Shown here piece after piece: positions 22,106 through 51,081 of a stretch of 64,000 bases of DNA. Position numbers and translations under genes: made by a program. The stretch's first letter is position 1; each line of letters starts with the position of its first letter. Origin of the DNA: Amia ocellicauda (taxonomy: Eukaryota; Chordata; Actinopteri; Amiiformes; Amiidae); contig NW_027102770.1 in assembly GCF_036373705.1 (NCBI RefSeq), positions 1 through 64,000 on the forward strand. The letters run 5' to 3'. Below the pieces are notes generated by a model that ran no database searches, had not been told where the DNA came from, and worked only from the letters and a program-made list of their open reading frames with translations.

Positions 22106-22166
22106 TATCCAGTGTTCCTTTTGCCCTTCTTCAAACGTGTCAGCAGGAGCACCTTTGTCTGTCTCT

Positions 22167-22192
22167 GTGGTGTAATCGATTAGCTGTTGACC
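22167..22192 (+). pseudogene. tRNA-Asn fragment, module 0
   Basis: Only the acceptor 5' strand and D-arm remain ('ctctgtggtgtaatcgatt'); the sequence then jumps to the module spacer. It is the most diverged module and sits at the array's left edge. Confidence 0.7.
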
Positions 22193-22350
22193 TTTTCCCC
22201 CCACCCCCTGTTATTATTTCTACTTCGGGCGGTCAGCTTGCCAGACTGCGGCTACAGTAACCTTAAGCTGCTTGCTGCGGACGGCCATCTTGGAAAAATG
22301 TATTGAGCGTTTAGAAACTTCCTTTCCATTGCCTAGGCCAACATAAACCA

Positions 22351-22424
22351 AGGCACTGCTAGGAGTCGAACCCAGGGTTTCCTGTTTACGAGACAAGCGC
22401 TTTGACCAACTAAGCCACGGTGCC
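22351..22424 (-). tRNA. tRNA-Thr(CGT), module 0
   Basis: Same fold as module 1, with C28 to T in the anticodon stem (a G-T wobble). The A and B boxes are kept. Confidence 0.75.
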
Positions 22425-22789
22425 AGGACTCTCCCATTCCCCAGTGCCTACACTCAGGCGTAAGAAACAAAACAAAACAAAACAAATTAAACAAAACAAA
22501 ACAAAACAAAACAAAACAAAACAAAACAAAACAAAATCTGGATGCAGGCTGCAACAAAGAAAGCACACAGAGGTGAAAATGTAAGGTTGACGGGAGCAAC
22601 AAGCTCCCTGTTGCGACTGTCCAGGGGCGGCAATGGGAATTGGACGTTAGGTAAGTAGCATAGTAGCATAACAGCAGATCACGGACCACTGTCAATCAGA
22701 TGCTTGCCTTTCCGTCCATCCATCCATCTATCTATCTATCTATCTTTGACTCTCGATATCTAACTCTCTTGCTTGCTATCGCTCCCCCA

Positions 22790-23861
22790 ATGGTCAGTAG
22801 CATAGTAGCATAACAGCAGATCACGGACCACTGTCAATCAGATGCTTGCCTTGCCGTCCATCCATCCATCTATCTATCTATCTATCTATGACTCTCGATA
22901 TCTAACTCTCTTGCTTGCTATCGCTCCCCCAATGGTCAGTAGCATAGTAGCATAACAGCAGATCACGGACCACTGTCAATCAGATGCTTGCCTTGCCGTC
23001 CATCCATCCATCCATCTATCTATCTATCTATGACTCTCGATATCTAACTCTCTTGCTTGCTATCGCTACCACAATGGTCAGTAGAATAGTAGCATATCAG
23101 GAGATCATAGACCACTGTCAATCAGATGCTTGCCTTGCCGTCCATCCATCCATCTATCTATCTATCTATCTATGACTCTCGATATCTAACTCTCTTGCTT
23201 GCTATCGCTCCCCCAATGGTCAGTAGCATAGGAGCATAACAGCAGATCACGGACCACTGTCAATCAGATGCTTGCCTTGACGTCCATCCATCTATCTATC
23301 TATCTATCTATCTATGACTCTCAATATCTAACTCTCTTGCTTGCTATCGCTACCACAATGGTCAGTAGAATAGTAGCATATCAGGAGATCATAGACCACT
23401 GTCAATCAGATGCTTGCCTTGCCGTCCATCCATCCATCTATCTATCTATCTATCTTTGACTCTCGATATCTAACTCTCTTGCTTGCTATCGCTCCCCCAA
23501 TGGTCAGTAGCATAGTAGCATAACAGCAGATCACGGACCACTGTCAATCAGATGCTTGCCTTGCCGTCCATCCATCCATCTATCTATCTATCTATCTATG
23601 ACTCTCGATATCTAACTCTCTTGCTTGCTATCGCTCCCCCAATGGTCAGTAGCATAGTAGCATAACAGCAGATCATGGACCACTGTCAATCAGATGCTTG
23701 CCATGCCGTCCATCCATCCATCTATCTATCTATCTATCTATGACTCTCGATATCTAACTCTCTTGCTTGCTATCGCTCCCCCAATGGTCAGTAGCATAGT
23801 AGCATAACAGCAGATCACGGACCACTGTCAATCAGATGCTTGCCTTGCCGTCCATCCATCC

Positions 23862-23899
<38 letters not shown>

Positions 23900-24045
23900 G
23901 ACTCTTGATATCTAACTCTCTTGCTTGCTATCGCTACCCCAATGGTCAGTAGAATAGTAGCATATCAGCAGATCATGGACCACAGTCAATCAGATGCTTG
24001 CCTTGCCGTCCATCCATCCATCTATCTATCTATCTATCTAGCTAT
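22790..24045. repeat. Satellite block: tandem 142-bp monomers without tRNA
   Basis: The phrase 'aatggtcagtag' recurs at about 22790, 22932, 23074 and so on at about 142-base steps. Monomers come in two main variants: the common 'tcgctcccccaatggtcagtag' type and a minority 'accacaatggtcagtagaatag' type with 'atatcaggagatcatagacc'. TCTA copy number changes monomer length. Confidence 0.9.
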
Positions 24046-24226
24046 CTATCTAGCTTTTTAGCTAGCTATCAATCTATGACTCTCAATATCTAACTCTCTT
24101 GCTTGCTATCGCTCCCCCAATGGTCACGTATGTTGCATTCAACGACAAAGAAAATCGTGTGCTGGAAATGATTTCTGGCAACTGTGAAGGAACTGCACGA
24201 CTGCAGCAAGCACAACACCTCCGTCT

Positions 24227-24300
24227 GTGTCTGTGGCGCAATCGGTCAGCGTGTTCGGCTGTTAACCGAAAGGATGGTGGTTTGAATCCACCCAGGGACG
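24227..24300 (+). tRNA. tRNA-Asn(GTT), module 1 (reference copy)
   Basis: Acceptor GTGTCTG/CAGGGAC has a G3-G70 clash and one wobble. The D-arm GCGC...GCGT, anticodon arm TTCGG-CTGTTAA-CCGAA (anticodon GTT) and T-stem GGTGG/CCACC are intact. The T-loop is TTTGAAT, so invariant C56 is T. A T4 run follows at 24307-24310. It is identifiable as Asn without doubt. The two shared defects suggest weak or lost function. Confidence 0.85.
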
Positions 24301-24306
24301 GCCCAC

Positions 24307-24310
24307 TTTT
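24307..24310 (+). terminator. Pol III T4 terminator after tRNA-Asn (representative)
   Basis: TTTT begins seven bases after the tRNA end, and the same position is kept in all complete modules. Confidence 0.55.
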
Positions 24311-24464
24311 CCCCCCGCCCCTTGTTATTGTTTCTACTTCTGGCGGTCACCTTGCCAGACTGCGGCTACAGTAACCTTAAGCTGCTTGCTGCGGACGGCC
24401 ATCTTGGAAAAATGTATTGAGCGTTTAGAAACTTCCTTTCCATTGCCTAGGCCAACATAAACCA

Positions 24465-24538
24465 AGGCACTGCTAGGAGTCGAACCCAGGGTTTCCTGTT
24501 TACGAGACAGGCGCTTTGACCAACTAAGCCACGGTGCC
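24465..24538 (-). tRNA. tRNA-Thr(CGT), module 1 (reference copy)
   Basis: Acceptor GGCACCG/CAGTGCC has a single C6-A67 mismatch. D-stem GCTT/AAGC, anticodon arm CCTGT-CTCGTAA-ACAGG (anticodon CGT) and T-arm CTGGG-TTCGACT-CCTAG are well paired. The A box TGGCTTAGTTGG and B box GGTTCGACTCC match consensus. The first T-run downstream on its strand is a T5 about 55 bp away (plus-strand aaaaa near 24409). It is transcribed towards tRNA-Asn, 164 bp away. Confidence 0.88.
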
Positions 24539-25742
24539 AGGACTCTCCCATTCCCCAGTGCCTACACTCAGGCGTAAGAAACAAAACAAAACAAAACAAA
24601 ACAAAACAAAACAAAACAAAACAAAACAAAACAAAACAAAACAAAACAAAACAAAACAAAACAAAACAAAACAAAACAAAACAAAACAAAACAAAACAAA
24701 ATCTGGATGCAGGCTGCAACAAAGGATGCACACAGAGGTGAAAACGTAAGGTTGACGGGAGCAACAAGCTCCCTGTTGCGACTGTCCAGGGGCGGCAATG
24801 GGAATTGGACGTTAGGTAAGTAGCATAGTAGCATAACAGCAGATCACGGACCACTGTCAATCAGATGCTTGCCTTTCCGTCCATCCATCCATCTATCTAT
24901 CTATCTATCTTTGACTCTCGATATCTAACTCTCTTGCTTGCTATCGCTCCCCCAATGGTCAGTAGCATAGTAGCATAACAGCAGATCACGGACCACTGTC
25001 AATCAGATGCTTGCCTTGCCGTCCATCCATCCATCTATCTATCTATCTATCTATGACTCTCGATATCTAACTCTCTTGCTTGCTATCGCTCCCCCAATGG
25101 TCAGTAGCATAGTAGCATAACAGCAGATCACGGACCACTGTCAATCAGATGCTTGCCTTGACGTCCATCCATCTATCTATCTATCTATCTATGACTCTCA
25201 ATATCTAACTCTCTTGCTTGCTATCGCTACCACAATGGTCAGTAGAATAGTAGCATATCAGGAGATCATAGACCACTGTCAATCAGATGCTTGCCTTGCC
25301 GTCCATCCATCCATCTATCTATCTATCTATCTTTGACTCTCGATATCTAACTCTCTTGCTTGCTATCGCTCCCCCAATGGTCAGTAGCATAGTAGCATAA
25401 CAGCAGATCACGGACCACTGTCAATCAGATGCTTGCCTTGCCGTCCATCCATCCATCTATCTATCTATCTATCTATGACTCTCGATATCTAACTCTCTTG
25501 CTTGCTATCGCTCCCCCAATGGTCAGTAGCATAGTAGCATAACAGCAGATCACGGACCACTGTCAATCAGATGCTTGCCATGCCGTCCATCCATCCATCT
25601 ATCTATCTATCTATCTATCTATGACTCTCGATATCTAACTCTCTTGCTTGCTATCGCTCCCCCAATGGTCAGTAGCATAGTAGCATAACAGCAGATCACG
25701 GACCACTGTCAATCAGATGCTTGCCTTGCCGTCCATCCATCC

Positions 25743-25780
<38 letters not shown>

Positions 25781-26107
25781 GACTCTTGATATCTAACTCT
25801 CTTGCTTGCTATCGCTACCCCAATGGTCAGTAGAATAGTAGCATATCAGCAGATCATGGACCACAGTCAATCAGATGCTTGCCTTGCCGTCCATCCATCC
25901 ATCTATCTATCTATCTATCTAGCTATCTATCTAGCTTTTTAGCTAGCTATCAATCTATGACTCTCAATATCTAACTCTCTTGCTTGCTATCGCTCCCCCA
26001 ATGGTCACGTATGTTGCATTCAACGACAAAGAAAATCGTGTGCTGGAAATGATTTCTGGCAACTGTGAAGGAACTGCACGACTGCAGCAAGCACAACACC
26101 TCCGTCT

Positions 26108-26181
26108 GTGTCTGTGGCGCAATCGGTCAGCGTGTTCGGCTGTTAACCGAAAGGATGGTGGTTTGAATCCACCCAGGGACG
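26108..26181 (+). tRNA. tRNA-Asn(GTT), module 2
   Basis: Same gene sequence as module 1. The module lies 1881 bp from module 1 and the intervening monomers are nearly the same set, pointing to a recent duplication. Confidence 0.85.
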
Positions 26182-26345
26182 GCCCACTTTTCCCCCCGCC
26201 CCTTGTTATTGTTTCTACTTCTGGCGGTCACCTTGCCAGACTGCGGCTACAGTAACCTTAAGCTGCTTGCTGCGGACGGCCATCTTGGAAAAATGTATTG
26301 AGCGTTTAGAAACTTCCTTTCCATTGCCTAGGCCAACATAAACCA

Positions 26346-26419
26346 AGGCACTGCTAGGAGTCGAACCCAGGGTTTCCTGTTTACGAGACAGGCGCTTTGA
26401 CCAACTAAGCCACGGTGCC
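26346..26419 (-). tRNA. tRNA-Thr(CGT), module 2
   Basis: Same sequence as module 1 by eye. Confidence 0.88.
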
Positions 26420-27600
26420 AGGACTCTCCCATTCCCCAGTGCCTACACTCAGGCGTAAGAAACAAAACAAAACAAAACAAAACAAAACAAAACAAAACAA
26501 AACAAAACAAAACAAAACAAAACAAAACAAAACAAAACAAAACAAAACAAAACAAAACAAAACAAAATCTGGATGCAGGCTGCAACAAAGGAAGCACACA
26601 GAGGTGAAAACGTAAGGTTGACGGGAGCAACAAGCTCCCTGTTGCGACTGTCCAGGGGCGGCAATGGGAATTGGACGTTAGGTAAGTAGCATAGTAGCAT
26701 AACAGCAGATCACGGACCACTGTCAATCAGATGCTTGCCTTTCCGTCCATCCATCCATCTATCTATCTATCTATCTTTGACTCTCGATATCTAACTCTCT
26801 TGCTTGCTATCGCTCCCCCAATGGTCAGTAGCATAGTAGCATAACAGCAGATCACGGACCACTGTCAATCAGATGCTTGCCTTGCCGTCCATCCATCCAT
26901 CTATCTATCTATCTATCTATGACTCTCGATATCTAACTCTCTTGCTTGCTATCGCTCCCCCAATGGTCAGTAGCATAGTAGCATAACAGCAGATCACGGA
27001 CCACTGTCAATCAGATGCTTGCCTTGACGTCCATCCATCTATCTATCTATCTATCTATGACTCTCAATATCTAACTCTCTTGCTTGCTATCGCTACCACA
27101 ATGGTCAGTAGAATAGTAGCATATCAGGAGATCATAGACCACTGTCAATCAGATGCTTGCCTTGCCGTCCATCCATCCATCTATCTATCTATCTATCTTT
27201 GACTCTCGATATCTAACTCTCTTGCTTGCTATCGCTCCCCCAATGGTCAGTAGCATAGTAGCATAACAGCAGATCACGGACCACTGTCAATCAGATGCTT
27301 GCCTTGCCGTCCATCCATCCATCTATCTATCTATCTATCTATGACTCTCGATATCTAACTCTCTTGCTTGCTATCGCTCCCCCAATGGTCAGTAGCATAG
27401 TAGCATAACAGCAGATCACGGACCACTGTCAATCAGATGCTTGCCATGCCGTCCATCCATCCATCTATCTATCTATCTATCTATGACTCTCGATATCTAA
27501 CTCTCTTGCTTGCTATCGCTCCCCCAATGGTCAGTAGCATAGTAGCATAACAGCAGATCACGGACCACTGTCAATCAGATGCTTGCCTTGCCATCCATCC

Positions 27601-27651
<51 letters not shown>

Positions 27652-27997
27652 CATCTATCTATCTATCTATGACTCTCGATATCTAACTCTCTTGCTTGCT
27701 ATCGCTCCCCCAATGGTCAGTAGCATAGTAGCATAACAGCAGATCACGGACCACTGTCAATCAGATGCTTGCCTTGCCGTCCATCCATCCATCTATCTAT
27801 CTATCTATCTAGCTATCTATCTAGCTATTTAGCTAGCTATCAATCTATGACTCTCAATATCTAACTCTCTTGCTTGCTATCTCTCCCCCAATGGTCACGT
27901 ATGTTGCATTCAACGACAAAGAAAATCGTGTGCTGGAAATGATTTCTGGCAACTGTGAAGGAACAGCACGACTGCAGCAAGCACAACACCTCCGTCT

Positions 27998-28071
27998 GTG
28001 TCTGTGGCGCAATCGGTCAGCGTGTTCGGCTGTTAACCGAAAGGATGGTGGTTTGAATCCACCCAGGGACG
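27998..28071 (+). tRNA. tRNA-Asn(GTT), module 3
   Basis: Gene as in module 1; the 5' flank has 'gaacagcacg' in place of 'gaactgcacg'. Confidence 0.85.
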
Positions 28072-28235
28072 GCCCACTTTTCCCCCCGCCCCTTGTTATT
28101 GTTTCTACTTCTGGCGGTCACCTTGCCAGACTGCGGCTACAGTAACCTTAAGCTGCTTGCTGCGGACGGCCATCTTGGAAAAAAGGATTGAGCGTTTAGA
28201 AACTTCCTTTCCATTGCCTAGGCCAACATAAACCA

Positions 28236-28309
28236 AGGCACTGCTAGGAGTCGAACCCAGGGTTTCCTGTTTACGAGACAGGCGCTTTGACCAACTAAGC
28301 CACGGTACC
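28236..28309 (-). tRNA. tRNA-Thr(CGT), module 3
   Basis: C3 to T in the acceptor (wobble with G70); otherwise as module 1. Confidence 0.85.
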
Positions 28310-29303
28310 AGGACTCTCCCATTCCCCAGTGCCTACACTCAGGCGTAAGAAACAAAACAAAACAAAACAAAACAAAACAAAACAAAACAAAACAAAACAA
28401 AACAAAACAAAACAAAACAAAACAAAACAAAACAAAACAAAACAAAACAAAACAAAACAAAACAAAACAAAACAAAATCTGGATGCAGGCTGCAACAAAG
28501 GAAGCACACAGAGGTGAAAACGTAAGGTTGACGGGAGCAACAAGCTCCCTGTTGCGACTGTCCAGGGGCGGCAATGGGAATTGGACGTTAGGTAAGTAGC
28601 ATAGTAGCATAACAGCAGATCACGGACCACTGTCAATCAGATGCTTGCTTTTCCGTCCATCCATCCATCTATCTATCTATCTATCTATGACTCTCGATAT
28701 CTAACTCTCTTGCTTGCTATCGCTCCCCCAATGGTCAGTAGCATAGTAGCATAACAGCAGATCACGGACCACTGTCAATCAGATGCTTGCCTTGCCGTCC
28801 ATCCATCCATCTATCTATCTATCTATCTATGACTCTCGATATCTAACTCTCTTGCTTGCTATCGCTCCCCCAATGGTCAGTAGCATAGTAGCATAACAGC
28901 AGATCACGGACCACTGTCAATCAGATGCTTGCCTTGCCGTCCATCCATCCATCCATCTATCTATCTATCTATCTATGACTCTTGATATCTAACTCTCTTG
29001 CTTGCTATCGCTACCCCAATGGTCAGTAGAATAGTAGCATATCAGCAGATCATGGACCACAGTCAATCAGATGCTTGCCTTGCCGTCCATCCATCCATCT
29101 ATCTATCTATCTATCTAGCTATCTATCTAGCTATTTAGCTAGCTATCAATCTATGACTCTCAATATCTAACTCTCTTGCTTGCTATCGCTCCCCCAATGG
29201 TCACGTATGTTGCATTCAACAACAAAGAAAATCGTGTGCTGGAAATGATTTCTGGCAACTGTGAAGGAACTGCACGACTGCAGCAAGCACAACACCTCCG
29301 TCT

Positions 29304-29377
29304 GTGTCTGTTGCGCAATCGGTCAGCGTGTTCGGCTGTTAACCGAAAGGATGGTGGTTTGAATCCACCCAGGGACG
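29304..29377 (+). tRNA. tRNA-Asn(GTT), module 4
   Basis: First copy of the G9-to-T subfamily ('ctgttgcgc' instead of 'ctgtggcgc'), shared by modules 4 to 8. Confidence 0.82.
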
Positions 29378-29541
29378 GCCCACTTTTCCCCCCGCCCCTT
29401 GTTATTGTTTCTACTTCTGGCGGTCACCTTGCCAGACTGCGGCTACAGTAACCTTAAGCTGCTTGCTGCGGACGGCCATCTTGGAAAAATGTATTGAGTG
29501 TTTTGAAACTTCCTTTCCATTGCCTAGGCCAACATAAACCA

Positions 29542-29615
29542 AGGCACTGCTAGGAGTCGAACCCAGGGTTTCCTGTTTACGAGACAGGCGCTTTGACCAA
29601 CTAAGCCACGGTGCC
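29542..29615 (-). tRNA. tRNA-Thr(CGT), module 4
   Basis: As module 1. The (CAAAA)n tract upstream carries the extra CAA step. Confidence 0.87.
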
Positions 29616-31609
29616 AGGACTCTCCCATTCCCCAGTGCCTACACTCAGGCGTAAGAAACAAAACAACAAAACAAAACAAAACAAAACAAAACAAAACAAA
29701 ACAAAACAAAACAAAACAAAACAAAACAAAACAAAACAAAACAAAACAAAACAAAACAAAACAAAACAAAACAAAACAAAATCTGGATGCAGGCTGCAAC
29801 AAAGGAAGCACACAGAGGTGAAAACGTAAGGTTGACGGGAGCAACAAGCTCCCTGTTGCGACTGTCCAGGGGCGGCAATGGGAATTGGACGTTAGGTAAG
29901 TAGCATAGTAGCATAACAGCAGATCACGGACCACTGTCAATCAGATGCTTGCCTTTCCGTCCATCCATCCATCTATCTATCTATCTATCTATGACTCTCG
30001 ATATCTAACTCTCTTGCTTGCTATCGCTCCCCCAATGGTCAGTAGCATAGTAGCATAACAGCAGATCACGGACCACTGTCAATCAGATGCTTGCCTTGCC
30101 GTCCATCCATCCATCCATCTATCTATCTATCTATCTATGACTCTCGATATCTAACTCTCTTGCTTGCTATCGCTCCCCCAATGGTCAGTAGCATAGTAGC
30201 ATAACAGCAGATCACGGACCACTGTCAATCAGATGCTTGCCTTGCCGTCCATCCATCCATCCATCTATCTATCTATCTATCTATGACTCTCGATATCTAA
30301 CTCTCTTGCTTGCTATCGCTCCCCCAATGGTCAGTAGCATAGTAGCATAACAGCAGATCACGGACCACTGACAATCAGATGCTTGCCTTGCCGTCCATCC
30401 ATCCATCTATCTATCTATCTATCTATGACTCTCGATATCTAACTCTCTTGCTTGCTATCGCTCCCCCAATGGTCAGTAGCATAGTAGCATAACAGCATTT
30501 CACGGACCACTGTCAATCAGATGCTTGCCTTGCCGTCCATCCATCCATCTATCTATCTATCTATCTATGACTCTCGATATCTAACTCTCTTGCTTGCTAT
30601 CGCTCCCCCAATGGTCAGTAGCATAGTAGCATAACAGCAGATCACGGACCACTGTCAATCAGATGCTTGCCTTGCTGTCCATCCATCCATCTATCTATCT
30701 ATCTATCTATGACTCTCGATATCTAACTCTCTTGCTTGCTATCGCTCCCCCAATGGTCAGTAGCATAGTAGCATAACAGCAGATCACGGACCACTGTCAA
30801 TCAGATGCTTGCCTTGCCGTCCATCCATCCATCTATCTATCTATCTATCTATGACTCTCGATATCTAACTCTCTTGCTTGCTATCGCTCCCCCAATGGTC
30901 AGTAGCATAGTAGCATAACAGCAGATCACGGACCACTGTCAATCAGATGCTTGCCTTGCCGTCCATCCATCCATCTATCTATCTATCTATCTTTGACTCT
31001 CGATATCTAACTCTCTTGCTTGCTATCGCTCCCCCAATGGTCAGTAGCATAGTAGCATAACAGCAGATCACGGACCACTGTCAATCAGATGCTTGCCTTG
31101 CCGTCCATCCATCCATCTATCTATCTATCTATCTATGACTCTCGATATCTAACTCTCTTGCTTGCTATCGCTCCCCCAATGGTCAGTAGCATAGTAGCAT
31201 AACAGCAGATCACGGACCACTGTCAATCAGATGCTTGCCTTGCCGTCCATCCATCCATCCATCTATCTATCTATCTATCTATGACTCTTGATATCTAACT
31301 CTCTTGCTTGCTATCGCTACCCCAATGGTCAGTAGAATAGTAGCATATCAGCAGATCATGGACCACAGTCAATCAGATGCTTGCCTTGCCGTCCATCCAT
31401 CCATCTATCTATCTATCTATCTAGCTATCTATCTAGCTATTTAGCTAGCTATCAATCTATGACTCTCAATATCTAACTCTCTTGCTTGCTATCGCTCCCC
31501 CAATGGTCACGTATGTTGCATTCAACAACAAAGAAAATCGTGTGCTGGAAATGATTTCTGGCAACTGTGAAGGAACTGCACGACTGCAGCAAGCACAACA
31601 CCTCCGTCT

Positions 31610-31683
31610 GTGTCTGTTGCGCAATCGGTCAGCGTGTTCGGCTGTTAACCGAAAGGATGGTGGTTTGAATCCACCCAGGGACG
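31610..31683 (+). tRNA. tRNA-Asn(GTT), module 5
   Basis: G9-to-T subfamily. The preceding monomer block (about 30.0-31.4 kb) is largely repeated at 32.3-33.8 kb, including the rare 'ccactgacaatcag' variant. Confidence 0.82.
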
Positions 31684-31847
31684 GCCCACTTTTCCCCCCG
31701 CCCCTTGTTATTGTTTCTACTTCTGGCGGTCACCTTGCCAGACTGCGGCTACAGTAACCTTAAGCTGCTTGCTGCGGACGGCCATCTTGGAAAAATGTAT
31801 TGAGTGTTTTGAAACTTCCTTTCCATTGCCTAGGCCAACATAAACCA

Positions 31848-31921
31848 AGGCACTGCTAGGAGTCGAACCCAGGGTTTCCTGTTTACGAGACAGGCGCTTT
31901 GACCAACTAAGCCACGGTGCC
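31848..31921 (-). tRNA. tRNA-Thr(CGT), module 5
   Basis: As module 1. Confidence 0.87.
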
Positions 31922-38946: not shown

Positions 38947-39020
38947 AGGCACTGCTAGGAGTCGAACCCAGGGTTTCCTGTTTACGAGACAGGCGCTTTG
39001 ACCAACTAAGCCACGGTGCC
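38947..39020 (-). tRNA. tRNA-Thr(CGT), module 8
   Basis: As module 1; the CAAAA tract has a 'caaaccaaaac' and an 'aacagaac' change. Confidence 0.87.
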
Positions 39021-39676: not shown

Positions 39677-39750
39677 GTGTCTGTGGCGCAATCGGTCAGC
39701 GTGTTCGGCTGTTAACCGAAAGGATGGTGGTTTGAATCCACCCAGGGACG
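39677..39750 (+). tRNA. tRNA-Asn(GTT), module 9
   Basis: G9 form. The 3' flank reads 'gccgaatttt', so the T4 terminator is kept. The module starts right after 'tccatccatccatctatgac', without the AGCT-rich variant monomer that precedes most modules. Confidence 0.83.
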
Positions 39751-39914
39751 GCCGAATTTTCCCCCCGCCCCTTGTTATTGTTTCTACTTCTGGCGGTCAC
39801 CTTGCCAGACTGCGGCTACAGTAACCTTAAGCTGCTTGCTGCGGACGGCCATCTTGGAAAAATGTATTGAGCGTTTAGAAACTTCCTTTCCATTGCCTAG
39901 GCCAACATAAACCA

Positions 39915-39988
39915 AGGCACTGTTAGGAATTGAACCCAGGGTATCCTGTTTACAAGACATGCGCTTTGACCAACTAAGCCACGGTGCC
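39915..39988 (-). tRNA. tRNA-Thr with anticodon TGT, module 9 (most diverged copy)
   Basis: The anticodon loop is CTTGTAA, so the anticodon has changed from CGT to TGT (still threonine). Other changes: C28 to A (stem mismatch), a T-loop TTCAATT (G57 to A), and a broken 49-65 pair. It is either a decaying copy or one touched by conversion from a tRNA-Thr(TGT). Confidence 0.75.
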
Positions 39989-41650: not shown

Positions 41651-41724
41651 GTGTCTGTGGCGCAATCGGTCAGCGTGTTCGGCTGTTAACCGAAAGGATG
41701 GTGGTTTGAATCCACCCAGGGACG
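41651..41724 (+). tRNA. tRNA-Asn(GTT), module 10
   Basis: As module 1; the 5' spacer differs by one base ('aaaatcatgtg'). Confidence 0.85.
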
Positions 41725-41888
41725 GCCCACTTTTCCCCCCGCCCCTTGTTATTGTTTCTACTTCTGGCGGTCACCTTGCCAGACTGCGGCTACAGTAACC
41801 TTAAGCTGCTTGCTGCGGACGGCCATCTTGGAAAAATGTATTGAGTGTTTAGAAACTTCCTTTCCATTGCCTAGGCCAACATAAACCA

Positions 41889-41962
41889 AGGCACTGCTAG
41901 GAGTCGAACCCAGGGTTTCCTGTTTACGATACAGGCGCTTTGACCAACTAAGCCACGGTGCC
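41889..41962 (-). tRNA. tRNA-Thr(CGT), module 10
   Basis: C32 to A in the anticodon loop; otherwise as module 1. Confidence 0.83.
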
Positions 41963-42780
41963 AGGACTCTCCCATTCCCCAGTGCCTACACTCAGGCGTA
42001 AGAAACAAAACAAAACAAAACAAAACAAAACAAAACAAAACAAAACAAAACAAAACAAAACAAAACAAAACAAAACAAAACAAAACAAAACAAAACAAAA
42101 TCTGGATGCAGGCTGCAACAAAGGAAGCACACAGAGGTGAAAACGTAAGGTTGACGGGAGCAACAAGCTCCCTGTTGCGACTGTCCAGGGGCGGCAATGG
42201 GAATTGGACGTTAGGTAAGTAGCATAGTAGCATAACAGCAGATCACGGACCACTGTCAATCAGATGCTTGCCTTTCCGTCCATCCATCCATCTATCTATC
42301 TATCTATCTTTGACTCTCGATATCTAACTCTCTTGCTTGCTATCGCTCCCCCAATGGTCAGTAGCATAGTAGCATAACAGCAGATCACGGACCACTGTCA
42401 ATCAGATGCTTGCCTTGCCGTCCATCCATCCATCTATCTATCTATCTATCTATGACTCTCGATATCTAACTCTCTTGCTTGCTATCGCTCCCCCAATGGT
42501 CAGTAGCATAGTAGCATAACAGCAGATCACGGACCACTGTCAATCAGATGCTTGCCTTGCCGTCCATCCATCCATCTATCTATCTATCTATCTAGCTATC
42601 TATCTAGCTATTTAGCTAGCTATCAATCTATGACTCTCAATATCTAACTCTCTTGCTTGCTATCGCTCCCCCAATGGTCACGTATGTTGCATTCAACGAC
42701 AAAGAAAATCGTGTGCTGGAAATGATTTCTGGCAACTGTGAAGGAACTGCACGACTGCAGCAAGCACAACACCTCCGTCT

Positions 42781-42854
42781 GTGTCTGTGGCGCAATCGGT
42801 CAGCGTGTTCGGCTGTTAACCGAAAAGATGGTGGTTTGAATCCACCCAGGGACG
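42781..42854 (+). tRNA. tRNA-Asn(GTT), module 11
   Basis: One change in the variable loop ('cgaaaagatgg'). Confidence 0.84.
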
Positions 42855-43018
42855 GCCCACTTTTCCCCCCGCCCCTTGTTATTGTTTCTACTTCTGGCGG
42901 TCACCTTGCCAGACTGCGGCTGCAGTAACCTTAAGCTGCTTGCTGCGGACGGCCATCTTGGAAAAATGTATTGAGCGTTTAGAAACTTCCTTTCCATTGC
43001 CTAGGCCAACATAAACCA

Positions 43019-43092
43019 AGGCACTGCTAGGAGTCGAACCCAGGGTTTCCTGTTTACGAGACAGGCGCTTTGACCAACTAAGCCACGGTGGC
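43019..43092 (-). tRNA. tRNA-Thr(CGT), module 11
   Basis: G2 to C breaks the second acceptor pair ('cggtggcagg' on the plus strand), adding to the shared 6-67 mismatch. Confidence 0.8.
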
Positions 43093-43922
43093 AGGACTCT
43101 CCCATTCCCCAGTGCCTACACTCAGGCGTAAGAAACAAAACAAAACAAAACAAAACAAAACAAAACAAAACAAAACAAAACAAAACAAAACAAAACAAAA
43201 CAAAACAAAACAAAACAAAACAAAACAAAACAAAACAAAACAAAACAAAACAAAATCTGGATGCAGGCTGCAACAAAGGAAGCACACAGAGGTGAAAACG
43301 TAAGGTTGACGGGAGCAACAAGCTCCCTGTTGCGACTGTCCAGGGGCGGCAATGGGAATTGGACGTTAGGTAAGTAGCATAGTAGCATAACAGCAGATCA
43401 CGGACCACTGTCAATCAGATGCTTGCCTTGCCGTCCATCCATCCATCTATCTATCTATCTATCTATGACTCTCGATATCTAACTCTCTTGCTTGCTATCG
43501 CTCCCCCAATGGTCAGTAGCATAGTAGCATAACAGCAGATCACGGACCACTGTCAATCAGATGCTTGCCTTGCCGTCCATCCATCCATCTATCTATCTAT
43601 CTATCTATGACTCTTGATATCTAACTCTCTTGCTTGCTATCGCTACCCCAATGGTCAGTAGAATAGTAGCATATCAGCAGATCATGGACCAAGTCAATCA
43701 CATGCTTGCCTTGCCGTCCATCTATCTATCTATCTATCTATCTATCTAGCTATTTAGCTAGCTATCAATCTATGACTCTCAATATCTAACTCTCTTGCTT
43801 GCTATCGCTCCCCCAATGGTCACGTATGTTGCATTCAACGACAAAGAAAATCGTGTGCTGGAAATGATTTCTGACAACTGTGAAGGAACTGCACGACTGC
43901 AGCAAGCACAACACCTCCGTCT

Positions 43923-43996
43923 GTGTCTGTGGCGCAATCGGTCAGCGTGTTCGGCTGTTAACCGAAAGCATGGTGGTTTGAATCCACCCAGGGACG
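43923..43996 (+). tRNA. tRNA-Asn(GTT), module 12
   Basis: Variable-loop change ('cgaaagcatgg'); otherwise as module 1. Confidence 0.84.
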
Positions 43997-44160
43997 GCCC
44001 ACTTTTCCCCCCGCCCCTTGTTATTGTTTCTACTTCTGGCGGTCACCTTGCCAGACTGCGGCTACAGTAACCTTAAGCTGCTTGCTGCGGACGGCCATCT
44101 TGGAAAAATGTATTGAGTGTTTCGAAACTTCCTTTCCATTGCCTAGGCCAACATAAACCA

Positions 44161-44234
44161 AGGCACTGCTAGGAGTCGAACCCAGGGTTTCCTGTTTACG
44201 AGACAGGCGCTTTGACCAACTAAGCCACGGTGCC
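44161..44234 (-). tRNA. tRNA-Thr(CGT), module 12
   Basis: As module 1; next to the shortest CAAAA tract. Confidence 0.87.
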
Positions 44235-45431
44235 AGGACTCTCCCATTCCCCAGTGCCTACACTCAGGCGTAAGAAACAAAACAAAACAAAACAAAACAA
44301 AACAAAACAAAACAAAATCTGGATGCAGGCTGCAACAAAGGAAGCACACAGAGGTGAAAACGTAAGGTTGACGGGAGCAACAAGCTCCCTGTTGCGACTG
44401 TCCAGGGGCGGCAATGGGAATTGGACGTTAGGTAAGTAGCATAGTAGCATAACAGCAGATCACGGACCACTGTCAATCAGATGCTTGCCTTTCCGTCCAT
44501 CCATCCATCTATCTATCTATCTATCTTTGACTCTCGATATCTAACTCTCTTGCTTGCTATCGCTCCCCCAATGGTCAGTAGCATAGTAGCATAACAGCAG
44601 ATCACGGACCACTGTCAATCAGATGCTTGCCTTGCCGTCCATCCATCCATCCATCTATCTATCTACCTATCTATGACTCTCGATATCTAACTCTCTTGCT
44701 TGCTATCGCTCCCCCAATGGTCAGTAGCATAGTAGCATAACAGCAGATCACGGACCACTGTCAATCAGATGCTTGCCTTGCCGTCCATCCATCCATCCAT
44801 CTATCTAACTATCTATCTATGACTCTCGATATCTAACTCTCTTGCTTGCTATCGCTCCCCCAATGGTCAGTAGCATAGTAGCATAACAGCAGATCACGGA
44901 CCACTGTCAATCAGATGCTTGCCTTGCCGTCCATCCATCCATCTATCTATCTATCTATCTATGACTCTCGATATCTAACTCTCTTGCTTGCTATCGCTCC
45001 CCCAATGGTCAGTAGCATAGTAGCATAACAGTAGATCACGGACCACTGTCAATCAGATGCTTGCCTTGCCGTCCATCCATCCATCTATCTATCTATCTAT
45101 CTATGACTCTTGATATCTAACTCTCTTGCTTGCTATCGCTACCCCAATGGTCAGTAGAATAGTAGCATATCAGCAGATCATGGACCACAGTCAATCAGAT
45201 GCTTGCCTTGCCGTCCATCCATCCATCTATCTATCTATCAATCTAGCTATCTATCTAGCTATTTAGCTAGCTATCAATCTATGACTCTCAATATCTAACT
45301 CTCTTGCTTGCTATCGCTCCCCCAATGGTCACGTATGTTGCATTCAACGACAAAGAAAATCGTGTGCTGGAAATGATTTCTGGCAACTGTGAAGGAACTG
45401 CACGACTGCAGCAAGCACAACACCTCCGTCT

Positions 45432-45505
45432 GTGTCTGTGGCGCAATCGGTCAGCGTGTTCGGCTGTTAATCGAAAGGATGGTGGTTTGAATCCACCCAG
45501 GGACG
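45432..45505 (+). tRNA. tRNA-Asn(GTT), module 13
   Basis: C39 to T in the anticodon stem ('gttaatcgaaagg'), leaving a G-T wobble under the loop; shared with module 16. Confidence 0.82.
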
Positions 45506-45669
45506 GCCCACTTTTCCCCCCGCCCCTTGTTATTGTTTCTACTTCTGGCGGTCACCTTGCCAGACTGCGGCTACAGTAACCTTAAGCTGCTTGCTGCGGA
45601 CCGCCATCTTGGAAAAATGTATTGAGCGTTTAGAAACTTCCTTTCCATTGCCTAGGCCAACATAAACCA

Positions 45670-45743
45670 AGGCACTGCTAGGAGTCGAACCCAGGGTTTC
45701 CTGTTTACGAGACAGGCGCTTTGACCAACTAAGCCACGGTGCC
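45670..45743 (-). tRNA. tRNA-Thr(CGT), module 13
   Basis: As module 1; 5' flank reads 'cagaacctac' instead of 'cagtgcctac'. Confidence 0.87.
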
Positions 45744-46857
45744 AGGACTCTCCCATTCCCCAGAACCTACACTCAGGCGTAAGAAACAAAACAAAACAAA
45801 ACAAAACAAAACAAAACAAAACAAAACAAAACAAAACAAAACAAAACAAAACAAAACAAAACAAAACAAAACAAAACAAAACAAAACAAAACAAAACAAA
45901 ATCTGGATGCAGGCTGCAACAAAGGAAGCACACAGAGGTGAAAACGTAAGGTTGACGGGAGCAACAAGCTCCCTGTTGCGACTGTCCAGGGGCGGCAATG
46001 GGAATTGGACGGTAGGTAAGTAGCATAGTAGCATAACAGCAGATCACGGACCACTGTCAATCAGATGCTTGCCTTTCCGTCCATCCATCCATCTATCTAT
46101 CTATCTATCTTTGACTCTCGATATCTAACTCTCTTGCTTGCTATCGCTCCCCCAATGGTCAGTAGCATAGTAGCATAACAGCAGATCACGGACCACTGTC
46201 AATAAGATGCTTGCCTTGCCGTCCATCCATCCATCTATCTATCTATCTATCTATCTATGACTCTCGATATCTAACTCTCTTGCTTGCTATCGCTCCCCCA
46301 ATGGTCAGTAGCATAGTAGCATAACAGCAGATCACGGACCACTGTCAATCAGATGCTTGCCTTGCCGTCCATCCATCCATCTATCTATCTATCTATCTAT
46401 GACTCTCGATATCTAACTCTCTTGCTTGCTATCGCTCCCCCAATGGTCAGTAGCATAGTAGCATAACAGCAGATCACGGACCACTGTCAATCAGATGCTT
46501 GCCTTGCCGTCCATCCATCCATCTATCTATCTATCTATCTATGACTCTTGATATCTAACTCTCTTGCTTGCTATCGCTACCCCAATGGTCAGTAGAATAG
46601 TAGCATATCAGCAGATCATGGACCACAGTCAATCAGATGCTTGCCTTGCCGTCCATCCATCCATCTATCTAGCTATCTATCTAGCTATTTAGCTAGCTAT
46701 CAATCTATGACTCTCAATATCTAACTCTCTTGCTTGCTATCGCTCCCCCAATGGTCACGTATGTTGCATTCAACGACAAAGAAAATCGTGTGCTGGAAAT
46801 GATTTCTGGCAACTGTGAAGGAACTGCACGACTGCAGCAAGCACAACACCTCCGTCT

Positions 46858-46931
46858 GTGTCTGTGGCGCAATCGGTCAGCGTGTTCGGCTGTTAACCGA
46901 AAGGATGGTGGTTTGAATCCACCCAGGGACG
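46858..46931 (+). tRNA. tRNA-Asn(GTT), module 14
   Basis: As module 1. Confidence 0.85.
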
Positions 46932-47095
46932 GCCCACTTTTCCCCCCGCCCCTTGTTATTGTTTCTACTTCTGGCGGTCACCTTGCCAGACTGCGGCTAC
47001 AGTAACCTTAAGCTGCTTGCTGCGGACGGCCATCTTGGAAAAATGTATTGAGCGTTTAGAAACTTCCTTTCCATTGCCTAGGCCAACATAAACCA

Positions 47096-47169
47096 AGGCA
47101 CTGCTAGGAGTCAAACCCAGGGTTTCCTGTTTACGAGACAGGCGCTTTGACCAACTAAGCCACGGTGCC
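47096..47169 (-). tRNA. tRNA-Thr(CGT), module 14
   Basis: C56 to T in the T-loop ('gtcaaaccc' on the plus strand), the same B-box change that is fixed in the Asn copies. Confidence 0.82.
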
Positions 47170-47808
47170 AGGACTCTCCCATTCCCCAGTGCCTACACTC
47201 AGGCGTAAGAAACAAAACAAAACAAAACAAAACAAAACAAAACAAAACAAAACAAAACAAAACAAAACAAAACAAAACAAAATCTGGATGCAGGCTGCAA
47301 CAAAGGAAGCACACAGAGGTGAAAACGTAAGGTTGACGGGAGCAACAAGCTCCCTGTTGCGACTGTCCAGGGGCGGCAATGGGAATTGGACGTTAGGTAA
47401 GTAGCATAGTAGCATAACAGCAGATCACGGACCACTGTCAATCAGATGCTTGCCTTTCCGTCCATCCATCCATCTATCTATCTATCTATCTTTGACTCTC
47501 GATATCTAACTCTCTTGCTTGTTATCGCTCCCCCAATGGTCAGTAGCATAGTAGCATAACAGCAGATCACGGACCACTGTCAATCAGATGCTTGCCTTGC
47601 CGTCCATCCATCCATCTATCTAGCTATCTATCTAGCTATTTAGCTAGCTATCAATCTATGACTCTCAATATCTAACTCTCTTGCTTGCTATCGCTCCCCC
47701 AATGGTCACGTATGTTGCATTCAACGACAAAGAAAATCGTGTGCTGGAAATGATTTCTGGCAACTGTGAAGGAACTGCACGACTGCAGCAAGCACAACAC
47801 CTCCGTCT

Positions 47809-47882
47809 GTGTCTGTGGCGCAATCGGTCAGCGTGTTCGGCTGTTAACCGAAAGGATGGTGGTTTGAATCCACCCAGGGACG
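47809..47882 (+). tRNA. tRNA-Asn(GTT), module 15
   Basis: As module 1; module spacing to the previous one is the shortest seen (951 bp). Confidence 0.85.
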
Positions 47883-48046
47883 GCCCACTTTTCCCCCCGC
47901 CCCTTGTTATTGTTTCTACTTCTGGCGGTCACCTTGCCAGACTGCGGCTACAGTAACCTTAAGCTGCTTGCTGCGGACGGCCATCTTGGAAAAATGTATT
48001 GAGCGTTTAGAAACTTCCTTTCCATTGCCTAGGCCAACATAAACCA

Positions 48047-48120
48047 AGGCACTGCTAGGAGTCGAACCCAGGGTTTCCTGTTTACGAGACAGGCGCTTTG
48101 ACCAACTAAGCCACGGTGCC
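48047..48120 (-). tRNA. tRNA-Thr(CGT), module 15
   Basis: As module 1. Confidence 0.88.
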
Positions 48121-49115
48121 AGGACTCTCCCATTCCCCAGTGCCTACACTCAGGCGTAAGAAACAAAACAAAACAAAACAAAACAAAACAAAACAAAACA
48201 AAACAAAACAAAACAAAACAAAACAAAACAAAACAAAACAAAACAAAACAAAACAAAACAAAACAAAACAAAACAAAACAAAACAAAACAAAATCTGGAT
48301 GCAGGCTGCAACAAAGGAAGCACACAGAGGTGAAAACGTAAGGTTGACGGGAGCAACAAGCTCCCTGTTGCGACTGTCCAGGGGCGGCAATGGGAATTGG
48401 ACGTTAGGTAAGTAGCATAGTAGCATAACAGCAGATCACGGACCACTGTCAATCAGATGCTTGCCTTTCCGTCCATCCATCCATCTATCTATCTATCTAT
48501 CTTTGACTCTCGATATCTAACTCTCTTGCTTGCTATCGCTCCCCCAATGGTCAGTAGCATAGTAGCATAACAGCAGATCACGGACCACTGTCAATCAGAT
48601 GCTTGCCTTGCCGTCCATCCATCCATCTATCTATCTATCTATCTATGACTCTCGATATCTAACTCTCTTGCTTGCTATCGCTCCCCCAATGGTCAGTAGC
48701 ATAGTAGCATAACAGCAGATCACGGACCACTGTCAATCAGATGCTTGCCTTGCCGTCCATCCATCCATCTATCTATCTATCTATCTATGACTCTTGATAT
48801 CTAAATCTCTTGCTTGGTATCGCTACCCCAATGGTCAGTAGAATAGTAGCATATCAGCAGATCATGGACCACAGTCAATCAGATGCTTGCCTTGCCGTCC
48901 ATCCATCCATCTATCTATCTATCTATCTAGCTATCTATCTAGCTATTTAGCTAGCTATCAATCTATGACTCTCAATATCTAACTCTCTTGCTTGCTATCG
49001 CTCCCCCAATGGTCACGTATGTTGCATTCAACGACAAAGAAAATCGTGTGCTGGAAATGATTTCTGGCAACTGTGAAGGAACTGCACGACTGCAGCAAGC
49101 ACAACACCTCCCTCT

Positions 49116-49189
49116 GTGTCTGTGGCGCAATCGGTCAGCGTGTTCGGCTGTTAATCGAAAGGATGGTGGTTTGAATCCACCCAGGGACG
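49116..49189 (+). tRNA. tRNA-Asn(GTT), module 16
   Basis: C39 to T as in module 13; the 5' flank 'acctccctctg' is shared with module 17. Confidence 0.82.
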
Positions 49190-49353
49190 GCCCACTTTTC
49201 CCCCCGCCCCTTGTTATTGTTTCTACTTCTGGCGGTCACCTTGCCAGACTGCGGCTACAGTAACCTTAAGCTGCTTGCTGCGGACGGCCATCTTGGAAAA
49301 ATGTATTGAGCGTTTAGAAACTTCCTTTCCATTGCCTAGGCCAACATAAACCA

Positions 49354-49427
49354 AGGCACTGCTAGGAGTCGAACCCAGGGTTTCCTGTTTACGAGACAGG
49401 CGCTTTGACCAACTAAGCCACGGTGCC
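49354..49427 (-). tRNA. tRNA-Thr(CGT), module 16
   Basis: As module 1. Confidence 0.88.
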
Positions 49428-50212
49428 AGGACTCTCCCATTCCCCAGTGCCTACACTCAGGCGTAAGAAACAAAACAAAACAAAACAAAACAAAACAAAA
49501 CAAAACAAAACAAAACAAAACAAAACAAAACAAAACAAAACAAAACAAAACAAAACAAAACAAAACAAAACAAAACAAAATCTGGATGCAGGCTGCAACA
49601 AAGGAAGCACACAGAGGTGAAAACGTAAGGTTGACGGGAGCAACAAGCTCCCTGTTGCGACTGTCCAGGGGCGGCAATGGGAATTGGACGTTAGGTAAGT
49701 AGCATAGTAGCATAACAGCAGATCACGGACCACTGTCAATCAGATGCTTGCCTTTCCGTCCATCCATCCATCTATCTATCTATCTATCTTTGACTCTCGA
49801 TATCTAACTCTCTTGCTTGCTATCGCTCCCCCAATGGTCAGTAGCATAGTAGCATAACAGCAGATCACGGACCACTGTCAATCAGATGCTTGCCTTGCCG
49901 TCCATCCATCCATCTATCTATCTATCTATCTATGACTCTCGATATCTAACTCTCTTGCTTGCTATCGCTCCCCCAATGATCAGTAGCATAGTAGCATAAC
50001 AGCAGATCACGGACCACTGTCAATCAGATGCTTGCCTTGCCGTCCATCCATCCATCCATCTATGACTCTCAATATCTAACTCTCTTGCTTGCTATCGCTC
50101 CCCCAATGGTCACGTATGTTGCATTCAACGACAAAGAAAATCGTGTGCTGGAAATTATTTCTGGCAACTGTGAAGGAACTGCACGACTGCAGCAAGCACA
50201 ACACCTCCCTCT

Positions 50213-50286
50213 GTGTCTGTGGCGCAATCGGTCAGCGTGTTCGGCTGTTAACCGAAAGGATGGTGGTTTGAATCCACCCAGGGACG
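50213..50286 (+). tRNA. tRNA-Asn(GTT), module 17
   Basis: Gene as module 1. Like module 9 it lacks the AGCT-rich leading monomer. Confidence 0.85.
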
Positions 50287-50450
50287 GCCCACTTTTCCCC
50301 CCGCCCCTTGTTATTGTTTCTACTTCTGGCGGTCACCTTGCCAGACTGCGGCTACAGTAACCTTAAGCTGCTTGCTGCGGACGGCCATCTTGGAAAAATG
50401 TATTGAGCGTTTAGAAACTTCCTTTCCATTGCCTAGGCCAACATAAACCA

Positions 50451-50524
50451 AGGCACTGCTAGGAGTCGAACCCAGGGTTTCCTGTTTACGAGACAGGCGC
50501 TTTGACCAACTAAGCCACGGTGCC
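50451..50524 (-). tRNA. tRNA-Thr(CGT), module 17
   Basis: As module 1; the CAAAA tract has CCAAA variants like module 9. Confidence 0.88.
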
Positions 50525-51081
50525 AGGACTCTCCCATTCCCCAGTGCCTACACTCAGGCGTAAGAAACAAAACAATCCAAAACAAAACAAACCAAAACAA
50601 ACCAAAACAAACCAAAACAAAACAAAACAAAACAAAACAAAACAAAACAAAACAAAACAAAACAAAACAAAACAAAACAAAACAAAATCTGGATGCAGGC
50701 TGCAACAAAGGAAGCACACAGAGGTGAAAACGTAAGGTTGACGGGAGCAACAAGCTCCCTGTTGCGACTGTCCAGGGGCGGCAATGGGAATTGGACGTTA
50801 GGTAAGTAGCATAGTAGCATAACAGCAGATCACGGACCACTGTCAATCAGATGCTTGCCTTTCCGTCCATCCATCCATCTATCTATCTATCTATCTTTGA
50901 CTCTCGATATCTAACTCTCTTGCTTGCTATCGCTCCCCCAATGGTCAGTAGCATAGTAGCATAGCAGCAGATCACGGACCACTGTCAATCAGATGCTTGC
51001 CTTGCCGTCCATACATCCATCTATCTATGACTCTCGATATCTAACTCTCTTGCTTGCTATCGCTCCCCCAATGACAGGCAA

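Follow-up and report, generated by a model that had tools for sequence, protein, structure and literature searches.

An array occupying positions 22145-51072 of the window analysed in the current work (a stretch of 64,000 nt of Amia ocellicauda DNA) consists of 17 complete modules and one truncated module, each complete module pairing a tRNA-Asn(GTT) gene with a tRNA-Thr(CGT) gene, together with 114 satellite monomers in 18 runs. The array is probably a composite satellite homogenised, as we infer, by recombination, its tRNA genes being mostly passengers.

Organisation of the array

The array was proposed from a sequence-only reading to hold 18 Asn/Thr modules at 22145..51071, coordinates which are right to 1-2 bases (the satellite ends at 51072); 17 of these modules are complete, the first (22145-22649) having an intact Thr gene and a mostly deleted Asn gene. 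In each complete module the Asn gene lies on the forward strand and the Thr gene on the reverse strand, so that a facing (tail-to-tail) pair forms the repeated core (Table 1). ARAGORN identified 17 tRNA-Asn(GTT) genes on the forward strand and 18 tRNA-Thr genes on the reverse strand, the latter with anticodon CGT in all but one case (TGT, 39915-39988), and independently of ARAGORN all 35 genes scored 52.0-63.8 bits with the Rfam model RF00005 (gathering score 29). An exact match to a 19-base anchor served to locate the complete modules, and the independent tRNA counts agree with the number of 17. The two-level organisation with the facing pair as its repeated core is real, and the description as a tRNA-bearing satellite is a fair one. 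Of the 28,928 bp of the array, 16,847 bp are satellite and 11,576 bp belong to the 17 complete modules, while the 35 tRNA genes total 2,590 bp.

The core, taken as the segment between left junction and (AAACA)n tract, measures exactly 457 bp in all 17 complete modules, and these cores show a mean pairwise identity of 98.8% (6 of 136 pairs being identical), which bears out the near-identity of modules noted earlier; the tract itself varies from 41 to 131 bp. A common core length and common junctions in 17 modules are plainly beyond chance, and the array has what marks a tandem tRNA array, namely near-identical repeated units with tRNA genes (17 complete units, 35 Rfam tRNA hits). An assembly error that raised the number of copies or misjoined their order in this repetitive stretch is very unlikely: although the copy number rests on a single assembly, and the six identical core pairs are what false duplication would give, the window is without any N, the units are told apart by their overall length, the length of their tracts and their private substitutions, and the array edges run into distinct flanks.

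Table 1 Coordinates of the modules, satellite runs and flanking tRNA segments in the window.
Feature	Position	Strand	Description
Shorter inverted Asp-Leu pieces	19878-19983; 16063-16134		
Second decayed Asp-Leu copy, inverted	18993..19255	-	tRNA-Leu-like 19009-19091, 26.5 bits, under Rfam gathering score
Left flank, decayed Asp-Leu segment	21789..22142	+	76.8% identical to 51082-51451
Module 1, edge copy	22145..22649	+	Asn mostly deleted (remnant 22161 to about 22191); Thr 22351-22424 (-)
Satellite run 1	22650..24121	.	10 monomers
Module 2, type copy	24122..24814	+	Asn 24227-24300 (+), Thr 24465-24538 (-), (AAACA)n 24579-24701, tail to 24814
Module 3	26003..26680	+	Core identical to modules 2 and 16
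Module 4	27893..28590	+	
Module 5	29199..29894	+	First of adjacent modules 5-9 with core G114T (Asn G9T)
Module 6	31505..32195	+	
Module 7	34373..35058	+	
Module 8	36430..37115	+	
Module 9	38604..39299	+	
Module 10	39572..40239	+	Thr: 6 substitutions in 38 bp, anticodon TGT, 2 stem pairs newly broken, lowest score (52.0 bits)
Module 11	41546..42213	+	
Module 12	42676..43368	+	Thr second acceptor pair broken
Module 13	43818..44430	+	Shortest AAACA tract, 41 bp
Module 14	45327..46014	+	
Module 15	46753..47395	+	Thr B box also C56T
Module 16	47704..48406	+	
Module 17	49011..49693	+	
Module 18	50108..50800	+	
Satellite runs 2-18	Gaps between listed modules and 50801-51072	.	
Right edge	51073..51412	.	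Satellite adjoins truncated, presumably Asp-like tRNA (-), then tRNA-Leu(CAG) 51330-51412 (+), 45.1 bits

Satellite runs and their junctions

The 142-bp monomer described earlier was recovered by TRF as a 142-bp unit, and 142 bp is the commonest length (67 of 114 monomers), followed by 146 bp (20 of 114), with the others ranging from 130 to 186 bp. Runs contain 2-15 monomers. The upstream module-satellite junction lies at one point in 17 of 17 cases (CAATGGTCA/CGTA) and the downstream junction at one point in 18 of 18, where the satellite is entered at GGTAAGTAG. Since each junction falls at a single point, it was one composite unit (module, edge monomers and variable inner run) that was multiplied. 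The type of the first monomer is fixed in all 18 runs and the last monomer is long (165-178 bp) in 15 and 130 bp in three, while the number and order of the inner monomers vary between runs, so that the array is a loose higher-order repeat at most.

Derivation of the satellite from the module was considered and rejected, as no BLAST match exists between monomer and module. Exact matches were absent for a monomer 39-mer in viral and bacterial/archaeal contigs, and for an Asn 47-mer in viral contigs, these being non-vertebrate collections in which absence is no evidence of novelty. No named family for module or monomer emerged from these searches or from the literature matches listed, and none of those matches, judged mostly by title and the start of the abstract, dealt with this module.

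State of the tRNA genes

In canonical tRNA numbering (our own mapping for positions 3-70, 6-67 and 56), pair 3-70 of the Asn gene is a G.G mismatch and its B box reads GGTTTGAATCC with U56 in all 17 complete copies, while acceptor pair 6-67 of the Thr gene is a C.A mismatch in all 18. These shared lesions were absent from the sequence-only reading. We take position 56 to belong to the B-box base pair contacted in the yeast TFIIIC structure. That pair is reported to be contacted directly, B-box recognition governing TFIIIC recruitment (PMC11724288). A T4 run is found at +7 of the Asn gene in 17 of 17 complete modules, whereas the first T4 run beyond the Thr gene lies 52-53 nt downstream in 18 of 18 copies; transcripts would thus be predicted to end at about +10 (Asn) and about +57 (Thr). 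Convergent overlapping transcripts giving double-stranded RNA are unlikely, because the predicted ends leave approximately 100 of the 164 intervening bp.

The Asn acceptor mismatch and altered B box, the Thr acceptor mismatch without a nearby T4, and mutations falling alike in genes and spacers (see below) lead to the passenger reading, which is also favoured by the Rfam score of each variant copy being lower than that of its consensus. Against this reading, both tRNAs keep their folds (52-64 bits), 12 of the 18 Thr genes share one sequence, their A and B boxes looking canonical, and the Asn gene has its T4 run at +7 throughout the complete modules. On the passenger reading, useful Asn tRNA output would be little or none, and some Thr transcription is possible.

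The identical Thr copies with their canonical-looking boxes would also suit an egg-stage (maternal) array, in which the oocyte would transcribe Thr(CGT), and possibly a variant Asn as well, from many repeated copies, by analogy with zebrafish. There, egg and early-embryo isodecoders are reported to be multi-copy in highly repetitive regions and late ones scattered, with Thr-AGT/TGT/CGT among the families that switch (PMC11417395), and most tRNA genes are located on Chr4R, where maternal 5S and snRNA genes also lie, a maternal role being proposed for these tRNAs (PMC11075544). The setting is that of a ray-finned fish, the group to which the best-scoring named Tc1 relatives belong. We consider such an array a live but less likely alternative, given that the Asn gene is altered in both B box and acceptor stem, that the Thr acceptor carries a mismatch, that the first T4 lies 52-53 nt beyond Thr, and that the tRNA genes show no excess conservation.

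Variation and probable homogenisation among the units

The passenger reading is further addressed by the distribution of variant sites within the core: distinct variant sites were counted at 14 of 146 tRNA gene positions versus 18 of 311 spacer positions (p=0.17), and at 8 of 146 versus 15 of 311 when the private variants of module 10 were left out (p=0.82). Within the array the tRNA genes therefore show no detectable constraint, variant sites being no rarer than in the spacers, although the same neutral look could arise if single copies of a multigene family were under weak selection. The tail after the AAACA tract, with 2 variant sites in 115, seemed better conserved than the spacers (18 of 311), but the difference is not significant (p=0.12).

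Core variant G114T is present in exactly five adjacent units (0.002 under random placement) and G23A in exactly four (0.006), both variants having been chosen after seeing the data; such runs of units sharing a variant are as expected from local exchange. A Mantel test of distance against identity along the array showed no trend (r=-0.14, p=0.89; r=-0.03, p=0.59 with module 10 left out), so that simple distance decay of similarity was rejected and homogenisation is not simply local. The six changes in the module 10 Thr gene are clustered (p=0.001, the 38-bp width having been chosen after seeing the data) and may reflect ectopic conversion, with decay as the alternative.

Decay of CpG type is enriched in the array. 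C>T/G>A variants affect 7 of 8 CpG positions versus 6 of 48 other C/G positions in the monomer (2 of 114 left parts with >12 differences having been dropped and the commonest monomer type taken as ancestral), and 6 of 44 versus 7 of 195 in the core. This pattern would be consistent with germline methylation of the array; a CpG observed/expected ratio of 0.61 in the array, compared with 0.45 and 0.37 in the flanks, argues against long, heavy methylation.

Edges of the array and origin of the tRNA pair

The array lies inside an older, partly decayed tRNA cluster, both flanks holding old tRNA copies and transposons. The truncated tRNA at the right edge, called by neither ARAGORN nor Rfam, is one which we take to be Asp, and the Leu copy of the left-flank segment gave no Rfam match even at E<=1. 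Array cores are 98.8% identical versus 77% for the flanking Asp-Leu relatives. The truncated module 1 continues from the decayed Leu copy of the left flank, and it is divergent on its outer side and nearly identical inward, with 5 differences from the array consensus in 45 positions at core 185-229, 1 in the 228 positions that follow as far as the tract, and a further 2 in the tail.

Because the Asp-Leu segment flanks the array on both sides and module 1 continues from the decayed Leu copy, the Asn-Thr pair looks local rather than a mobile cassette. GGTCA and GGTAA at the two module ends also fit insertion and could be a 5-bp duplication, yet a native origin is more likely than a mobile cassette with a target-site duplication, which is disfavoured by the continuity of the edge copy with the Asp-Leu segment. 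The earlier view of tRNA modules embedded in a satellite holds as far as the two-level array is concerned, the pair itself appearing to be local. A tRNA-headed SINE was likewise rejected, because all 17 complete modules have a T4 run starting 7 nt past the Asn gene and because the pair continues from the older cluster at the edge.

The flanks also bear on a possible chromatin boundary or clustering element, in which tRNA B boxes would load TFIIIC and insulate neighbours, as proposed for human 1q23.3. Such an element would fit the 35 closely spaced Pol III-type genes, the barrier activity reported for part of the mouse tDNA cluster (PMC4041453) and a candidate CTCF-like site at 19780, on the left side of the array, which departs at one position from a 14-base consensus. 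We regard it as improbable, since the Asn B box is altered, nothing obvious is separated (the flanks holding old tRNA copies and transposons, with no match to an ordinary gene family in the 10 of 25 listed window ORFs scanned), and none of the eight CTCF-like sites in the window (<=2 mismatches to the consensus, a weak test) falls in the array.

Comparison with known tRNA arrays

Tandem tRNA arrays are already known, and the facing pair with nested satellite runs would be a variant of that kind. Among vertebrates, the 3.18-kb tDNA repeat of Xenopus laevis is a tandem tRNA unit with more tRNA genes per unit than the Amia array and, to our knowledge, no satellite run. Large tRNA arrays in fish had been invoked in the sequence-only reading, and the zebrafish parallel stands, while tandem tRNA repeats are better known than was implied, human 1q23.3 and Entamoeba being examples. 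The human 1q23.3 tRNA VNTR, which has a mouse counterpart, comprises 9-43 units of 7.3 kb that are 98% identical, and resembles the Amia array in its tandem, approximately 98%-identical units, in which tRNA genes occupy either strand and microsatellites are included (PMC4041453). The human unit is reported as GC-rich and CpG-rich, with five tRNAs and CTCF (PMC4041453), whereas in the fish array a unit of 0.95-2.9 kb contains two tRNAs and a nested run of satellite, and a scan of the array for CTCF-like sites at <=2 mismatches to the consensus, a weak test, gave none.

The zebrafish chromosome 4 long arm similarly has numerous tRNA copies grouped in clusters within a region rich in repeats (PMC11075544, PMC11417395). 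In Danio, neighbouring tRNA pairs are reported to be nearly all parallel, K-N, K-S and R-T being most frequent (PMC2888827), in contrast to the tail-to-tail Asn-Thr pair and the satellite between modules in Amia. Entamoeba arrays also consist of small tRNA groups in tandem units for which concerted evolution has been proposed, with variable short tandem repeats between tRNA genes in E. histolytica and E. dispar; this protist differs in carrying nearly all genomic tRNA genes in arrays and in its short, microsatellite-like repeats (PMC2652664). The Arabidopsis Ser/Tyr (SYY) cluster is comparable in that tandem tRNA genes meet constitutive heterochromatin and are silenced in most tissues; it is a plant cluster, and the parts of that report consulted mention no nested satellite (PMC12308677).

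Discussion

Under the composite-satellite explanation, a facing Asn-Thr pair of the old local cluster (for which an order Asp-Leu-Asn-Thr would be assumed) would have been joined to the approximately 142-bp satellite. The resulting unit (module, first monomer, n inner monomers, last monomer) would then have been multiplied, with unequal exchange and gene conversion maintaining the similarity of its copies as the number of inner monomers drifted. The tRNA genes would have been carried along mainly as passengers, later mutations falling in genes and spacers alike.

It is improbable, though conceivable, that the satellite serves as a recombination substrate in a developmental-dose array, in which unequal exchange would alter the number of Asn-Thr pairs and leave the genes unbroken. 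If true, such an array would adjust how much of a special Thr(CGT) and of a U56-type Asn tRNA the egg receives, and would represent a two-level design that is not described for tRNA genes in the portions of the literature compared here.

The composite array may show a satellite in the making from tRNA genes and, since the old cluster, the edge copy and the amplified units are all present in one window, its stages can be placed in sequence. An active array would allow a test of whether egg-stage tRNAs of fish depend on repeat arrays beyond zebrafish; a silent one would be a warning that passengers with good tRNA-finder scores can swell the tRNA gene counts of fish genomes.

Organization of the array

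The tRNA-bearing array that had been proposed by the sequence-only reading proved genuine at 22145-51072, where ARAGORN and the Rfam tRNA model agree on 35 tRNA genes (17 tRNA-Asn(GTT), all on the plus strand, and 18 tRNA-Thr, all on the minus strand; all 35 supported by Rfam at 52.0-63.8 bits). Eighteen modules had been counted, of which 17 are complete, while the other, module 1 in left-to-right numbering, is a copy at the left edge that has lost most of its Asn gene. In each complete pair the Asn and Thr genes lie tail to tail with 164 bp between them, and the core, bounded by the left junction and the (AAACA)n tract (41-131 bp), measures exactly 457 bp in all 17 complete modules. These cores differ by few bases, as expected from that reading, with a mean pairwise identity of 98.8%, at most 13 differences and six identical pairs among 136.

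The monomer runs between modules are indeed variable, amounting to 114 satellite monomers in 18 runs of 2-15. Monomers measure 142 bp (n=67) or 146 bp (n=20), the other 27 spanning 130-186 bp and varying in length mainly in their (TCCA)n(TCTA)n core. Runs open at 18/18 junctions with a monomer carrying GGTAAG in place of GGTCAG, the last monomer is a long variant of 165-178 bp in 15 of the 18 runs and 130 bp in runs 9, 17 and 18, and the upstream module junction falls at the same base in 17/17 cases. Given these fixed junctions and distinctive first and last monomers, what is repeated is one composite unit (951-2868 bp over the 16 intervals measured) within which the inner monomer number is free; the array is a loose higher-order repeat, not a tRNA cluster merely situated in satellite DNA. 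Its creation by misassembly is unlikely, because the units carry private variants and differ in run length.

GC skew is negative in every 2-kb step from 22001 to 52000 (-0.15 to -0.32 per 2 kb) and much weaker elsewhere; over the array it probably derives from the C-rich satellite strand.

Features within and around the array
Feature	Position	Strand	Remark
Frames encoding an integrase core (rve) and a chromodomain	within 1444-2641	-	
tRNA-Leu(TAA)	2559-2641	+	ARAGORN; 17 bp from end of integrase frame
Tc1-type transposase remnant	11477-12600		frame 12070-12600 labelled by eye only
Tc1-type transposase remnant	14700-15212		
Inverted Asp-Leu relative	16063-16134		84% over 74 columns
Inverted Asp-Leu relative	18993-19255		77% identity
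CTCF-like site	19780		single mismatch; weak consensus scan
Inverted Asp-Leu relative	19878-19983		69% identity
Left Asp-Leu segment	21789-22142		
Module 1	22145-22649		truncated edge copy
Module 10 tRNA-Thr	39915-39988	-	
Right Asp-Leu segment	51082-51451		
tRNA-Pro(CGG)	51530-51600		ARAGORN call
tRNA-Leu(GAG)	52106-52177		ARAGORN call
Tc1-type transposase remnant	52901-54034		
tRNA-Thr(AGT)	56622-56693		ARAGORN call
Tc1-type transposase remnant	59350-59838		labelled by eye only; covered by Pfam scan, no hit

Flanking segments and probable homogenization

Copies of one Asp-Leu tRNA segment border the array to left and right, equally oriented and 76.8% identical. The Asp half, called by neither ARAGORN nor Rfam, is assigned by its resemblance to tRNA-Asp. 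The right copy holds tRNA-Leu(CAG) (ARAGORN; 45.1 bits in Rfam), and the copies left of the array are decayed, the Leu at 18993-19255 scoring 26.5 bits, below the Rfam gathering score, and that of the copy adjoining the array having no Rfam match even at E<=1. This adjoining Leu copy runs straight into module 1, which differs from the array consensus at 5/45 positions of core 185-229, at 1/228 onward to the tract and at two further positions in its tail. Such a pattern is what an array edge would look like, with homogenization covering only part of the last unit. Since position 3 of Asn is C in the module 1 remnant and G in 17/17 complete copies, the G3 form is probably derived.

Core variants G114T and G23A, selected for the placement test after data inspection, occupy exactly five and exactly four adjacent units, respectively, patterns with probabilities of 0.002 and 0.006 if units were placed at random. 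Similarity and distance along the array showed no relation in a Mantel test (r=-0.14, p=0.89; r=-0.03, p=0.59 when module 10 was omitted), so that exchange would not be confined to neighbouring units. We consider it probable that a composite satellite grew here from a local tRNA cluster, in which case unequal exchange and conversion would have expanded the array and the tRNA genes would have been carried along as its passengers.

C>T/G>A variants are enriched at CpG positions both in monomers (7/8 versus 6/48 others, p=5e-5) and in cores (6/44 versus 7/195 others, p=0.017), which suggests germline CpG methylation of the array. Against this, the CpG observed/expected ratio is higher in the array (0.61) than in the flanks (0.45 and 0.37), a difference compatible with an array that is young or not fully methylated.

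Condition of the tRNA genes

Canonical positions follow our own mapping of the 74-nt gene. Acceptor pair 3-70 of Asn is G.G and its T loop is TTTGAAT in 17/17 complete copies, placing T at position 56 within the B box, and pair 6-67 of Thr is C.A in 18/18 copies. According to PMC11724288, the B box is the primary governor of TFIIIC recruitment, and the yeast TFIIIC-tRNA gene structure displays direct contact with the base pair here mapped to position 56, which by analogy may be relevant to T56 of this Asn. C56T is also present in module 15 Thr. A T4 run occurs at +7 after Asn in 17/17 complete modules; after Thr the first lies at +53 or, in one of the 18 copies, at +52.

Variant sites are not fewer in the genes (14/146) than in the spacers (18/311; p=0.17), nor when those private to module 10 are left aside (8/146 versus 15/311, p=0.82), and every variant tRNA copy scores lower in Rfam than its consensus. 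The Thr of module 12 has lost the second acceptor pair, and that of module 10 carries six substitutions within 38 bp (clustering p=0.001), with the anticodon changed from CGT to TGT and two pairs newly broken, attributable to conversion by an unseen donor or to decay in place. Thr copies are identical in 12/18 cases with canonical-looking A and B boxes, and both Asn and Thr fold well, so some tRNA output is possible.

The main rival to a passenger role, an array supplying tRNA at the egg stage, appears to us a less probable reading. In zebrafish, repeated copies give rise to the early isodecoders and scattered genes to the late ones, Thr being among the switching families (PMC11417395); PMC11075544 leaves open whether the tRNA genes on zebrafish Chr4 are maternal. 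A boundary role is improbable: a weak consensus scan yields eight CTCF-like sites across the window and none of them inside the array, the single-mismatch site being in the left flank.

Transposons and other tRNA calls

The surroundings contain Tc1-type transposases, adjacent integrase and chromodomain frames and a reverse transcriptase (Pfam hits in six of ten ORFs scanned, out of 25 listed). Among the best 120 of 4417 relatives of the long Tc1 frame at 52901, the best-scoring named ones are ray-finned fish, including Cyprinus carpio (94% identity over 88% of the length) and Paramormyrops (92%), with a spider and a bacterial entry further down. These matches support a fish source; because Tc1 elements transfer between species, they point to no particular one. 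The integrase/chromodomain element is possibly an insertion beside tRNA-Leu(TAA). The Pro(CGG), Leu(GAG) and Thr(AGT) calls right of the array have no Rfam match even at E<=1; the first two resemble each other by eye, so a single decayed gene may be represented twice.

Relation to known tandem tRNA systems

No paper on this array was among the open-access matches listed, and sequence scans for its parts, covering viral, bacterial and archaeal contigs, gave no exact match. The human 1q23.3 tandem repeat has 98%-identical units with tRNAs on both strands and inner microsatellites (PMC4041453), tandem tRNA repeats are known in Entamoeba (PMC2652664) and Arabidopsis (PMC12308677), and zebrafish and stickleback have tRNA clusters (PMC2888827). 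Tandem tRNA repeats as such are thus known; what distinguishes the Amia ocellicauda array from these systems is a nested satellite whose length varies, together with the tail-to-tail Asn-Thr core.
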